DNA of 42,728 nt, taken from the NCBI GenBank assembly GCA_944331955.1, contig CALVIY010000007.1, positions 1 to 42,728 of the forward strand, read 5' to 3'. The position numbers were made by a program, and so were the translations under genes. The DNA comes from an uncultured Bacilli bacterium (GTDB taxonomy: Bacteria; Bacillota_I; Bacilli_A; RF39; UBA660). Under the pieces are notes generated by a model. It saw only the letters and a program-made list of their open reading frames with translations, made no database searches and was not told the origin of the DNA. Below, one piece after another: positions 19,749 through 39,008 of the stretch (position 1 is its first letter; the number at the start of each line of letters is the position of its first letter).

Positions 19749-19787
19749 TAGTAATTTAGTTACTTTCTTTCATTGTGCAAGAAAAAG

Positions 19788-19813
19788 AGAATAGGATAAT
19801 TCTATTCTTTTTT
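19788..19813 (+). terminator. Attenuator-type terminator, copy 3
   Basis: AGAATAGGA (19788-19796) pairs with TTCTATTCT (19800-19808), one wobble and a three-base loop, followed by TTTTT. Confidence 0.7.
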
Positions 19814-19837
19814 AAGTGCAATAATGAAGGGAATGAG

Positions 19838-21460
19838 ATGATGAAAAAATTATTATTGGAAACAAGTTTTAGTAAGATATATATGATTGTAATGATTATA
19901 ATAACTCTATTGATATTAGGAGGATACTTTTCATATGCCATGTTTACAGTAAGTAGGGAAAAAGGGAATGCAATAAGTATTGTAACTGGTAATTTAACAT
20001 ATGATTTAAAAGTAGATGGAGTTAAATCTAATACTTTAACTGTAAAAGCTAATAGAAGTAGAGAATTTGAGGTAACTCTAACTAATCCTAATAATATAAA
20101 AGCAAGATTTAACTTTTATTATTTAGGAGATATTTCTAGTGAAGTAAATATCGGATACTTAGAAAGTGATGGATATAATAAAACTCCGGAAGCAGTTGGC
20201 GTTAATTTAGAAAAAAGTGGCTCTAGTGGAAGTAGTAATGTATATAGAATTTTAGTAGAAAATGAAAGTGATAATGATATTAGTATAGAACTAGGAGTAA
20301 GTGTAGGACTAGATTATAATGATTTAAGTCTAGAAGATAATGAACATTTATTTACAAAGATAGAACTTCCAAATGTTGTAGATCAACTTCTTGTTACTAA
20401 TAAAGTTAAAACAGAAAAAGATAATATGTTTAATTATACTAGTAATGGAAATATATTTACGGATGTTACTAGTGGTAAAATAGAAAATGATCCAGATTAT
20501 GTGACAAATGGCTTATATAGTATGAATGATGAAGATGGAATAAGCTATTACTATAGAGGTAATATAGAAAATAATAATGTGCAATTTGGAGAGTATACAA
20601 GTGATTATTATGTATATAATTTATATGATTATGAAGATAGATATTTCCAAAGTTTAGAATCTTGTCAAGAATATAATTCAAGTTGTAGTGAAAGTAATAG
20701 AGTAAAGCTTGCAAGTGCAGGAGATAAGATGTACTGGAAAGTAGTTCGAGTAAATGGAGATGGTAGTTTAAGGTTAATATATAATGGAACAAGTCCTAAC
20801 CCTGATAATAGTGATATAGCCCATTCTTATGCAGTAGGAATAACACCATATAATATAGCATATAATGAGCCTAAATATACAGGATATACCTATGATAACG
20901 GAATAGATTCATTTATAAAAAAAGAAGTAGATACCTGGTATGAAAATGCTTTAGGGAACACTGTTTATGACAAAGTAATAAACAGTGGCCATTTCTGTAG
21001 TGATAGTAGTGGGTTTAAAAATGGAAATGAATTTGTTGGAGGAGTTAGTGGATATGAAGACTTATATGTGTATGCAATTTATGAAAGAATATCTATGTCT
21101 ATTGTTTCCTATGATAAACCAAACAGTCCAACCTTAATTTGCCCCGATACAAATGAAACATATGGAGGAAGTTATAGTCTAAAGGCAGGATTAATAACAA
21201 CCGATGAATTAGTATTAGCAGGAGGAGCGAGGGATATAGAGGGAAACGATTATTTAAAACCAATGGCAGGTCATTATTGGACTATGACACCCTCAGATTT
21301 TAATATTATTGGTAGGGCTTATGTTGGAATTATTTCAGATAGTGTAGATGTTCGTTTGTCTGGTAATACCAGTGGTGTTCGTCCGGTTATAAATGTTTCT
21401 ATAGATAATGGATTCACATCTGGAGACGGTACTTTGGAAAATCCTTATGTAATTTCTTAA
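19838..21460 (+). CDS. SipW-type surface protein, paralogue B
   Basis: A 540-residue paralogue of the protein at 11404. The start is ATG 19838 (MMKKLLLETSFSKIYM), after GAAGGGA; the same frame is open further upstream but runs through the terminator. Signal, TasA-like domain and central region are nearly identical to paralogue A for about 230 residues. The lectin-like C-terminal half shares landmarks (KMYWKVVRVNGDGSLRLIYNG, YWTMTPSDF, GVRPVINV) but differs between them, for example YVGIISDSVDVRLSGNTS. This is the pattern expected for a family with a constant export domain and variable ligand-binding face. It is under the leader at 19637-19813. Confidence 0.82.
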   Translation: MMKKLLLETSFSKIYMIVMIIITLLILGGYFSYAMFTVSREKGNAISIVTGNLTYDLKVDGVKSNTLTVKANRSREFEVTLTNPNNIKARFNFYYLGDISSEVNIGYLESDGYNKTPEAVGVNLEKSGSSGSSNVYRILVENESDNDISIELGVSVGLDYNDLSLEDNEHLFTKIELPNVVDQLLVTNKVKTEKDNMFNYTSNGNIFTDVTSGKIENDPDYVTNGLYSMNDEDGISYYYRGNIENNNVQFGEYTSDYYVYNLYDYEDRYFQSLESCQEYNSSCSESNRVKLASAGDKMYWKVVRVNGDGSLRLIYNGTSPNPDNSDIAHSYAVGITPYNIAYNEPKYTGYTYDNGIDSFIKKEVDTWYENALGNTVYDKVINSGHFCSDSSGFKNGNEFVGGVSGYEDLYVYAIYERISMSIVSYDKPNSPTLICPDTNETYGGSYSLKAGLITTDELVLAGGARDIEGNDYLKPMAGHYWTMTPSDFNIIGRAYVGIISDSVDVRLSGNTSGVRPVINVSIDNGFTSGDGTLENPYVIS

Positions 21461-34851: not shown

Positions 34852-35984
<1,133 letters not shown>

Positions 35985-35985
<1 letters not shown>

Positions 35986-36104: not shown

Positions 36105-37652
36105 ATGACAAGAAAGAAATATATAACAATATCTGTAGCGATAATATTAATAAGTATAATAGTATTAATAGGAACAAGTTATGCACTACTTACTATGACT
36201 ATAGAAGGAGATAAAAAGATAAGTGTAACAGCAGGAATATTAAAAGTTGATTTTACAGATGGTAATTATATTAACTTAGATAATGCAGCACCAGTTACAG
36301 ATAAACAGGGATTAAAGACAAGCCCATATACTTTTACAATAATTAATACAGGTAATATTAATGCCTATTATCATGTATCGCTAGAAGAAGAGGCAACTAA
36401 CACTTTAACCCATAATTATTTAAAAATGAGACTTACAAATGATAAAGGATATGACAGTGGAGTAGTTTATGTAAGTGATTATGAAGCAAGTGAAATGGAA
36501 ATAATGAGTGAACAAACATTAGAACCAGGTGAAGATAATAAAGTTACATACCAATTATGGATGTGGCTAGACTATAATGCTGACAACTCTGCTCAAGGAA
36601 AAGAGTATAAGAGTAAAATAGTAGTAACAAGTTATGATAGAAAAATGGGAACAAATGCTGTACAACTTGTTAAGAGTAAATCAAATGAAGAAAGTCTAGA
36701 TTATAATAGTGCGACAAGTGAACAACAAAAAGAAGCATGGGTACATAGTCATCCTGCAACAGAACAAACAGAGGCTCTAACAGATTATAGATATATAGGA
36801 GCAGATCCCAATAATTATGTAGAGTTTAATGATGAATTATGGAGAATAATAGGAGTCTTCACAGTAGATGATGGAACAGGAAAAGTAGAAGAAAGATTAA
36901 AGATAATAAGAAATGAATCTATTGGAATTTATTCTTGGGACAATAAGAACACTGAAACAGGAGCAGAATCTGCCTATGGTAAAAACAATTGGACCGATGC
37001 AAGACTAAACTACTTATTAAATCCCGGACATGAAAGCGAAAGTGTTGGAGGAAGCCTATACTGGAATAGTGGTAGTGGAACTTGTTATAATGGACAAAAT
37101 AATGCAACAACAAATTGTGACTTCACTTCTACAGGCTTAAAAGAAGAGGCAAGAAATATGATAGGTGACACTCTTTGGTATTTAGGAGGAACATTAAGTT
37201 ATACAAGTGCAAGTAATGGACTAGCAAGTCATTGGTACTCTTATGAAAGAGGAACAACAGTGTATAATAGTAGTACATCCCCAAGTGATACAAGTTTTGT
37301 AGGAAAAGTAGGATTGATGTATCCAAGTGACTATGGATATGCGACAAGTGGAGGAAGCACAAAAGAAAGAAATGCTTGTTTAAATAAAGAATTATATAAT
37401 TGGGGTAGTAGTGAGTTTAGTGACTGTAAGAACAACGACTGGCTATATGAAAGTAGCTATGCACAATGGACCCTTTCTCCTCGCGCGTCTTACTCCGACA
37501 GCGTGTTCTATGTGAGCTCGTCCGGCTTCGTCTACTACACCGGCAGCGCTTACAGTAGTAATGGGGTCCGGCCAGTCGCTTTTCTAAAGTCTAATATCAA
37601 GATTGTTGATGGAGATGGAAGTAGTAGCAATCCGTATATTCTAAAAGGATAA
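36105..37652 (+). CDS. SipW-type surface protein with lectin-like variable domain
   Basis: A 515-residue exported protein. The signal MTRKKYITISV leads into a hydrophobic helix and GTSYALLT, a SipW-type site. A TasA-like domain covers about 30-180. A DUF6273/C-type-lectin-like domain follows, opening EFNDELWRIIGVF, with NNWTDARLNYLLNPGH and ending SNGVRPVAFL and SSNPYILKG. Codons 460-492 differ sharply from the rest: they are GC-rich and mostly end in C. They encode RASYSDSVFYVSSSGFVYYT and GSAYSSNGVRPV. The pattern matches a variable region of a diversity-generating retroelement target. Paralogues at 11404 and 19838 share the fold but have ordinary base composition there. Likely a ligand-binding surface protein. 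Confidence 0.82.
   Translation: MTRKKYITISVAIILISIIVLIGTSYALLTMTIEGDKKISVTAGILKVDFTDGNYINLDNAAPVTDKQGLKTSPYTFTIINTGNINAYYHVSLEEEATNTLTHNYLKMRLTNDKGYDSGVVYVSDYEASEMEIMSEQTLEPGEDNKVTYQLWMWLDYNADNSAQGKEYKSKIVVTSYDRKMGTNAVQLVKSKSNEESLDYNSATSEQQKEAWVHSHPATEQTEALTDYRYIGADPNNYVEFNDELWRIIGVFTVDDGTGKVEERLKIIRNESIGIYSWDNKNTETGAESAYGKNNWTDARLNYLLNPGHESESVGGSLYWNSGSGTCYNGQNNATTNCDFTSTGLKEEARNMIGDTLWYLGGTLSYTSASNGLASHWYSYERGTTVYNSSTSPSDTSFVGKVGLMYPSDYGYATSGGSTKERNACLNKELYNWGSSEFSDCKNNDWLYESSYAQWTLSPRASYSDSVFYVSSSGFVYYTGSAYSSNGVRPVAFLKSNIKIVDGDGSSSNPYILKG
37481..37580 (+). other. GC-rich variable-region-like segment
   Basis: 59 of 100 bases are G or C, against roughly 30% around it. In frame, most codons are NNC (TAC, TCC, GAC, AGC, TTC, GGC, GTC, ACC), as when template AAC codons are randomised at adenine. 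It ends in GGGGTCCGGCCAGTCGC, a GC-rich 3' edge that encodes GVRPV. No matching template repeat or reverse transcriptase is in the window. Confidence 0.55.
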
Positions 37653-37678
37653 GTATAAGAATACTATCCTTTTTTTTT
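37643..37678 (+). terminator. Rho-independent terminator
   Basis: AAAAGGATA (37643-37651) pairs with TATCCTTTT (37665-37673), overlapping the stop codon, then T to 37678. Confidence 0.8.
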
Positions 37679-37687
37679 CTTAAACCC

Positions 37688-37715
37688 TTGACGTTTTTTC
37701 TTTTTTCCTTATAAT
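37688..37715 (+). promoter_or_regulatory. Promoter of nfo
   Basis: TTGACG at 37688-37693, 16-base spacer of almost only T and C, TATAAT at 37710-37715. Confidence 0.7.
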
Positions 37716-37738: not shown

Positions 37739-38584
37739 ATGTTAATAATTGGTTCTCATGTTGGATATAAAAAAGACTCTGGTTTAGTTGGAAGTGTAAA
37801 AGAAGCTTTAAGTTATAATGCTAACACTTTTATGTTTTATACTGGCGCTCCTCAAAATACTGTTAGAAGTAGTATTGATTTAGATAATGTTAAAGAAGCA
37901 GAAGTGTTAATGAAAGAAAATGGTCTTGATAAAAATAATGTAATAGTTCATGCCCCATATATCATTAATCTTGCTAACCCTGATAAATTTGACTTTTCCT
38001 GTGACTTTTTAAGTGAGGAGTTAAAACGTGTTAATACTTTTGGTATGAAATATTTAGTATTACATCCAGGTTCTCATGTAGGTTTAGGTGTAGATGTAGG
38101 TATTTCTAATATTATTAAAGCCTTAAATCTTGTCTTAGAAAAAGATGATAGCAATATTATGATATTACTTGAAACTATGGCAGGTAAAGGTAGTGAAGTA
38201 GGTAGATGCTTTGATGAAATTAAATCTATTATTGATGGAGTTAATCATAAAGAAAGAATTGGTGTTTGTCTTGATACATGTCATTTAAATGATGCAGGAT
38301 ATGACCTTAATAATTTTAATGAAGTCATAGATACTTTTGATAAAATAATCGGTATAGAAAAAATTAAATGTATTCATATTAACGATAGTAAAAACCCTAT
38401 TTCTTCTCATAAAGATAGACATGAAAATATTGGGAAAGGTACTATAGGTTTAGATACTTTAATGAAAGTAATAGATTGTGATAAATTAAAAGATGTTCCT
38501 AAAATATTAGAAACACCTTATATAGATGGTAATGCTCCTTATAAAGAAGAAATAGAATTAATTAGAAGTGTTAGTAAGCAGTAA
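37739..38584 (+). CDS. nfo: Endonuclease IV (AP endonuclease)
   Basis: A 281-residue TIM-barrel enzyme that cuts DNA at abasic sites in base-excision repair. The start is MLIIGSHVGYKKDSGL. Metal-site segments are VHAPYIINLAN, YLVLHPGSHVG, LLETMAGKGSEVG, GVCLDTCHLNDAGYD and HINDSKNPISSHKDRHENIGKG. All are intact. AAAGAAGG precedes ATG 37739. The 3' end overlaps the convergent prepilin gene by 14 bases, so there is no space for separate terminators between them. Confidence 0.96.
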   Translation: MLIIGSHVGYKKDSGLVGSVKEALSYNANTFMFYTGAPQNTVRSSIDLDNVKEAEVLMKENGLDKNNVIVHAPYIINLANPDKFDFSCDFLSEELKRVNTFGMKYLVLHPGSHVGLGVDVGISNIIKALNLVLEKDDSNIMILLETMAGKGSEVGRCFDEIKSIIDGVNHKERIGVCLDTCHLNDAGYDLNNFNEVIDTFDKIIGIEKIKCIHINDSKNPISSHKDRHENIGKGTIGLDTLMKVIDCDKLKDVPKILETPYIDGNAPYKEEIELIRSVSKQ

Positions 38585-39008
38585 CTTTGCAAGTTGTACT
38601 TGCTATATCTTTAACATTATAAACAGTCTTGTTAGTTCGCTTATCCACACAAGTTAAATTAATACTATAACTTTCTTTATTACGATTCTTAGTATATCTA
38701 ACTTTAGCATTAGTACAATTAATATTACTATCATCAAATGGTTTTATTAAATCACTATCAATTAAATCTTGATAAGTAATATCAACACAACCTGTAAAAT
38801 TTAAAGTTCCAAGACTAGTTATATCTTCTCCTTCTCTTAAAACATAAATCTCTGATGCTTCTATTAGACTATTTCCATAGTATTCATAGGCTTTATCTTC
38901 ATTATTATTTACTAAAGCTGTAATAGATGGTACGACAAGTAGTAATATTATTGCCATAATAGATATAGTCGCTAAAAGTTCAATTAAAGTAAAACCTTTT
39001 CTATTCAT
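38571..39008 (-). CDS. Type IV prepilin-like protein
   Basis: A 145-residue minus-strand protein with a class III signal: MNRKG/FTLIELLATISIMAIILL. Prepilin peptidase would cut after G5; F6 becomes the first residue and E10 is the conserved Glu5 of the mature pilin. A globular part of about 110 residues follows, with three or more cysteines (CVDITY, NCTNAK, TCVDKR, TTCKV). No assembly ATPase, peptidase or other pilin lies in the window. Relatives serve in competence pseudopili (ComG) or type IV pili. Role not assigned beyond this. Confidence 0.85.
   Translation of the reverse strand: MNRKGFTLIELLATISIMAIILLLVVPSITALVNNNEDKAYEYYGNSLIEASEIYVLREGEDITSLGTLNFTGCVDITYQDLIDSDLIKPFDDSNINCTNAKVRYTKNRNKESYSINLTCVDKRTNKTVYNVKDIASTTCKVTAY

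Follow-up and report, generated by a model that had tools for sequence, protein, structure and literature searches.

What produced the short GC-rich segment near the 3' end of a surface-protein gene in this AT-rich bacterial genome, and could it be the variable region (VR) of a diversity-generating retroelement (DGR)? The window analysed here is the whole 42,728-nt stretch of DNA, which is an entire contig (C7) of a 1.5-Mb assembly comprising 95 contigs at 94% completeness. At positions 37481-37580 the GC content reaches 59%, against a contig mean of 27.5% (SD 5.9 per 100 bp), an excess of ~5.4 SD. The GC-richest 100-base window elsewhere in the contig reaches 47%, so the island picked out by an earlier sequence-only reading is real. 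It occupies part of the last sixth of an open reading frame of 515 amino acids (36105-37652). The same reading had stated that nearly all codons of the island end in C. This was too strong, since the third bases of the 32 codons at 37479-37574 are 18 C, 6 G, 7 T and 1 A, but the GC content at third codon positions (GC3) is indeed strongly raised, at 0.75, whereas no run of 32 codons within the other main reading frames tested exceeds 0.375. In the remainder of the target gene, C occupies a fraction of 0.08 of the third positions.

The target gene and its predicted product

The features of the locus are as follows:
34861-35985, plus strand: tgt (tRNA guanosine-34 transglycosylase), upstream neighbour (TIGR00430, E 5e-161)
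36105-37652, plus strand: target gene for a 515-residue surface protein with an N-terminal membrane helix, a TasA-like fibre domain and a C-terminal C-type-lectin-like domain (reading frame, translation, homologues and model)
36219-36641, plus strand: predicted TasA-like beta-sandwich fibre domain, residues 39-179 (AlphaFold model, moderate support)
36783-37649, plus strand: predicted C-type-lectin-like domain (DUF6273-like), residues 227-515 (model, fold match and weak DUF6273 match)
37479-37574, plus strand: putative DGR variable region, 32 codons, encoding PRASYSDSVFYVSSSGFVYYTGSAYSSNGVRP (ungapped codon alignment to template repeats, adenine-restricted differences)
37563-37574, plus strand: constant 3' end of the variable region (GGGGTCCGGCCA), at the place of the initiation-of-mutagenic-homing site in known DGRs (comparison with template repeats)
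37643-37673, plus strand: hairpin followed by a T-run at the end of the target gene, a likely terminator by function (RNA fold of 37560-37700)
37739-38584, plus strand: nfo (deoxyribonuclease IV), downstream neighbour (NF002196, E 2e-119)

The flanking tgt and nfo genes indicate a chromosomal, non-prophage setting. A search of viral contigs with the window protein returned no relative, and there is thus no sign of a phage gene. Relatives were found at 73 loci in a homologue scan and come from uncultured Bacilli/"Tenericutes" MAGs. A pilin-like gene with an N-terminal methylation motif lies near the target on the minus strand (window 38571-39008), and a related pilin-like gene is located upstream of the target at the corresponding loci of two congeners (G008 and G011) and on contig C21 of the own genome.

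In the structural model, the N-terminal domain aligned with the TasA fibre (8aur; VIA-align Z 8.3, 128 residues, rmsd 3.1) and with an archaeal (Pyrobaculum) bundling pilus (7ueg; Z 6.6), with unrelated beta-sandwiches scoring up to Z 7.5. The lectin domain was modelled with a pLDDT of 80 and a pTM of 0.85. Its closest solved fold is the N-terminal C-type-lectin-like domain (CTLD) of the Thomasclavelia ramosa IgAse (9qa6; Z 17.6 over 218 residues, 19% identity), and the weaker matches are mostly CTLDs, including the DGR protein TvpA (2y3c; Z 4.8). These matches came from fold comparison alone; searching the PDB by sequence with the profile of the lectin returned nothing significant. The IgAse is a metallopeptidase whose likeness to the window lectin is one of fold, and its N-terminal domain has been called both DUF6273 and C-type-lectin-like (PMC12402451, PMC12237041). 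The lectin-like C-terminus proposed from the letters is therefore backed by a weak DUF6273 profile match and by a C-type-lectin-like fold in the model.

Template repeats of relatives and the variable region

In DGRs as studied in other systems, a reverse transcriptase (RT) with its partner Avd copies a template repeat (TR), random bases are introduced at adenines, and the cDNA homes to the VR of a target gene. A complete DGR of the kind considered here consists of TR, Avd, a MutS-I-like ORF and RT. We refer to the DGR type whose TR aligns to the window VR as class B. At three loci in relatives (L105, L099 and L141), a homologous target gene is followed by a TR that aligns to the window VR without gaps, and at L105 and L141 Avd and RT come after the TR. 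In the congeners G008 (contig C75) and G011 (its contig C39), the target gene encodes a protein with 69-73% amino acid identity to the window protein, and downstream of it lie, in this order, a MutS-I-like ORF, Avd, RT and finally the TR. G034 (C36) likewise carries a class-B cassette with a TR. The Avd proteins of the L105 and G008 cassettes match NF033474 (E 8e-14 and 3e-13), and their RTs contain the IGNxTSQ and YMDD motifs; MutS-I-like ORFs are also present in both. In class-B cassettes this small ORF, resembling MutS domain I, separates the target from Avd (L176, 3679-4059; L175, 3586-3969; L105, 7416-7775), with PF01624 matches of E 5e-6 (L176) and 0.002 (L105).

The cassettes of relatives display the expected adenine specificity within themselves. 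At L105, the VR differs from its TR in cis at 20/32 adenines versus 1/63 other bases (p=2e-11), and at L099 at 15/32 versus 0/63. We then compared the window VR with five reference TRs, those of L105, L099, L179 (G034), L176 (G008) and L177 (G028), over 96 aligned nucleotides without gaps. The L105 TR encodes PNSSNSNNVFNVNNTGYVNNNNNANNSNGVRP, the window VR PRASYSDSVFYVSSSGFVYYTGSAYSSNGVRP. At codon positions 1 and 2, 19/32 template adenines are changed compared to 3/32 other bases (p=2.3e-5), and by codon the change affects 14 of the 15 asparagine codons (AAC/AAT) and 3 of the 17 others (p=1.8e-5). Note that these best p-values were picked from the few TRs tried; the other four TRs show a bias in the same direction. 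Over all codon positions the adenine bias is weaker (p=0.008 with the L105 TR). Third codon positions of the window VR match the heterologous TRs only about half the time, which is the reason for testing the adenine rule mainly at positions 1 and 2, and which indicates that none of the five TRs is the donor.

Several controls bear on the specificity of this pattern. When the VR was taken as the template, no adenine bias was seen (1/14 adenines versus 21/50 other bases changed), and none of 20,000 codon shuffles gave three or fewer non-adenine changes. The next-best in-frame segment of the target gene has 17 non-adenine changes, and neighbouring lectin segments are without adenine bias. Positions that are asparagine in the template are now R, Y, D, S, T or G in the window VR, while the framework V-F-x-V, G-x-V and G-V-R-P is unchanged between the TRs of relatives and the window. 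VR columns facing template asparagines are more variable than the rest, and this also holds when only VRs of the own genome are compared (entropy 1.99 vs 1.10, p=7e-4). The constant 3' end GGGGTCCGGCCA is identical at 11 of 12 positions to GGGGTCCGCCCA, the TR end of G008 and G034, and we consider it a candidate initiation-of-mutagenic-homing (IMH) site.

Judged by these sequence comparisons, 37479-37574 is a DGR variable region of a C-type-lectin target. The proposal that codons of an AAC template had been randomised holds in the sense that, at the first two codon positions, nearly all differences from the TRs of relatives fall on template adenines, and the DGR assignment itself is borne out by the same gene type standing beside TR-Avd-RT cassettes in relatives. 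The VR lies near the 3' end of the gene (residues 459-490 of 515, CTLD by model), and at the level of the model the variable residues map onto the C-type-lectin-like domain of a TasA-like fibre subunit. The location of these residues suggests that the protein most likely presents an extracellular, variable surface for binding ligands, and this surface may be displayed on a fibre.

Paralogues, the missing donor and alternative origins

The own genome contains 7 class-B genes. Between the six that are long enough for pairwise comparison, the lectin scaffold is 83-88% identical in nucleotides, compared to 40-67% (25-55% in amino acids) for the VRs. The window gene and its paralogue on C21 share 94.7% of nucleotides over the N-terminal part and 54.8% in the VR. 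The window protein and the product of the own-genome contig C39 are 31% identical in amino acids over the N-terminal part and 88% in the lectin domain; the same lectin on different N-terminal stalks shows that recombination occurs. Adenine restriction is cleanest in the window VR among the seven class-B VRs, with those on C41 and C25 eroded. In a comparison among the other lectin genes, with VRs scored against a TR remnant on C48, VRs with GC3 ≥0.45 keep the adenine bias (45/112 vs 44/240, p=1.5e-5), and those with GC3 <0.3 have none (45/70 vs 101/150). High GC3 thus accompanies a preserved DGR signature, which accounts for the GC clue that had first drawn attention to the locus. Lectin-profile matches amount to 51 stretches over many contigs of the 1.5-Mb genome, and many genes have two lectin/VR domains.

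The statement that the window holds neither TR nor RT is correct for the whole of contig C7. The accompanying suggestion of a template acting in trans or beyond the edge found no support as stated. In the own genome, a degenerate pattern allowing A at every template position matched nothing beyond the VR itself and poly-A artefacts, and it recovered no donor TR from 287 further genomes of the order. When the G034 TR was searched against the own genome as DNA, it matched the window and otherwise only at chance level, and at a threshold of E≤10 the whole assembly yielded no fragment of a class-B RT. The near-identical template copy beside an RT that had been predicted to lie elsewhere in the genome is therefore not present in the 95 contigs. 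Transporter and pilin-like genes mark the ancestral class-B locus, which in the own genome lies on C21. All that is left there of the target and its cassette is the target gene and a MutS-I-like ORF, frameshifted or disrupted near its start, and a transposase-like gene follows directly; Avd, RT and TR are absent from this locus. The lack of a donor TR and of a class-B RT, together with the loss of the C21 cassette, makes an orphan or fossil VR likelier than one currently served in trans, and the window VR is probably such an orphan, frozen on a dispersed paralogue.

The RT search of the assembly pointed to five places. Contigs C9 and C26 encode DGR-type RTs of 316 amino acids with IGNYTSQ and YMDD motifs (class A). 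Beside the C9 RT there is a weak Avd match (NF033474, E 0.028; bAvd, E 0.007), and upstream of it a non-coding AAC/AAT-rich repeat that reads through as SSNVRYVNNNGNANNN. On contig C17 the RT belongs to another lineage, class C, and is accompanied by a VR, a TR and an Avd-like match; its YMDD codons are split by a group II intron, with a frameshift after the intron. The RT on C89 looks, by inspection, like that of a group II intron. Two TR/VR pairs of the own genome were left out as proof because they are weakly biased (C17, 25/37 adenines vs 22/65 other bases) or too short (C48, 5/17 vs 5/30). As donors for the window, which needs a template encoding VFxVxxxGxVxxxxxA, the class-A TR of C9 and C26 (SSNVRxVNNNGNANNN) and the class-C TR of C17 (PADFNNDNANVWNENENLNNNV) were both rejected as being of the wrong type.

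In the explanation that we favour, the island is the VR of a DGR target, displayed by a lectin domain (probability about 0.9), and it is probably orphaned in its own genome. The RNA of a TR rich in asparagine codons (AAC/AAT) would have been copied by the DGR RT with its Avd partner, random bases would have been inserted opposite template adenines, and the cDNA would have replaced the 3' end of the target gene, resulting in 32 codons with changed asparagine positions in a fixed framework. The class-B cassette serving the gene would later have gone from the ancestral locus now on C21, leaving the window VR frozen.

Alternatively, the VR may still be live, with a class-B TR-Avd-RT cassette hidden in an assembly gap and rewriting the window gene in trans. 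The fragmented and incomplete assembly leaves room for such a cassette, and many contigs end within repeats of DGR or lectin sequence: the start of C26 falls inside avd, and C12 and C55 break inside VR genes. Moreover, the VRs of the window and of C39 have the highest GC3 among the class-B paralogues (0.68 and 0.65) and, given that high-GC3 VRs keep the adenine bias that low-GC3 VRs have lost, both look recent. We nevertheless regard current rewriting as rather doubtful, considering the missing class-B RT, the relic state of the C21 locus and the fact that the class-A TRs recovered from congeners all belong to a different type. Rewriting by the class-A or class-C DGRs of the own genome appears very unlikely. 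These DGRs are present, the TR, Avd-like gene and RT of C9 are intact, and the TR of C26 lies unseen beyond the contig edge; however, the encoded TR types do not match, and the C17 RT is interrupted and frameshifted. An origin without any DGR, by import of a GC-rich segment through recombination and diversification by positive selection or gene conversion between paralogues, could draw on the clear shuffling of the lectin domain between N-terminal stalks. It does not predict changes confined to template adenines, and the same gene type stands beside DGR cassettes in relatives with the bias seen at L105, making this origin very improbable. An orphaned DGR variable region thus remains the preferred reading.

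Relation to known systems

The type system, the BPP-1 Mtd DGR, combines a TR/VR pair, Avd, an RT with the GxxxSQ motif, adenine-specific change and a CTLD target, and the DGRs of the window gene's relatives share these features. Mtd is a phage receptor-binding protein with an adjacent cassette, whereas the window gene is a chromosomal bacterial gene without one. The mechanism is ordinary, and DGRs with remote and leftover targets are already known; it is the setting that adds interest. Multiple VRs per DGR have been described (PMC3521204). Treponema denticola contains two DGR types, several dispersed CTLD targets per genome and leftover targets without their TR/RT type, all of which resembles the present genome, and a remote gene of strain SP32 has 19/21 changes at adenines of another strain's TR (PMC4891356). 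In contrast, its lectins are of the FGE-sulfatase type, many on lipoproteins, with an HRDC accessory (PMC4891356), while here a different phylum combines a DUF6273-like lectin with a TasA-like stalk and MutS-I-like ORFs. Cyanobacterial DGRs likewise have a dispersed lectin module (CLec) grafted onto different N-terminal domains with the VR near the 3' end, but their targets are mostly kinase-like and peptidase-like rather than carrying an extracellular fibre-like stalk (PMC7517822). In the limited set of literature searched, no paper joins DGRs with TasA or with RF39.

To these systems the present genome adds signs of three DGR lineages in a compact 1.5 Mb, targets with fibre-like stalks next to the large number of lectin-profile matches, and a series of VRs, ranging between adenine-clean and eroded, whose GC3 follows how well the DGR signature is preserved. 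Codon composition by itself offers a way of recognising DGR targets in AT-rich genomes, and the genus is one in which to trace how DGRs are gained, dispersed and lost. Tentatively, members of this genus, gut Bacilli with small genomes, might vary lectin tips on TasA-like fibres by DGRs, copy them onto several stalks and keep them as fixed variants after loss of the cassette, so that the mutagenic system would generate a germline-like binding repertoire once only.

Further traces of DGRs were noted in the own genome and its relatives. In three genomes (G000:C17, L009 and L013; G021:C20, L225; G015:C1, L226) the class-C RT is interrupted at the same YMDD point by a group II intron, which in C17 matches RF02005 and RF00029 and sits at TATATGGATG^GTGCGAC. 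The 3' exon of the G021 copy remains open, so that splicing would restore the RT. Truncated TR-like remnants lie directly behind VR-type genes on C48 (G000:C48, 8122-8203, L032; broken after GCGAA) and C46 (8977-9011, L033), and read as further cassettes that may be dead or misassembled. Finally, the window contains a second, AT-rich lectin-type gene (19775-21460) whose C-terminus (YWTMTPSDFN...SGVRPVINVSIDNGFTSGDG) resembles the class-C DGR target of C17 and is probably a retired VR.
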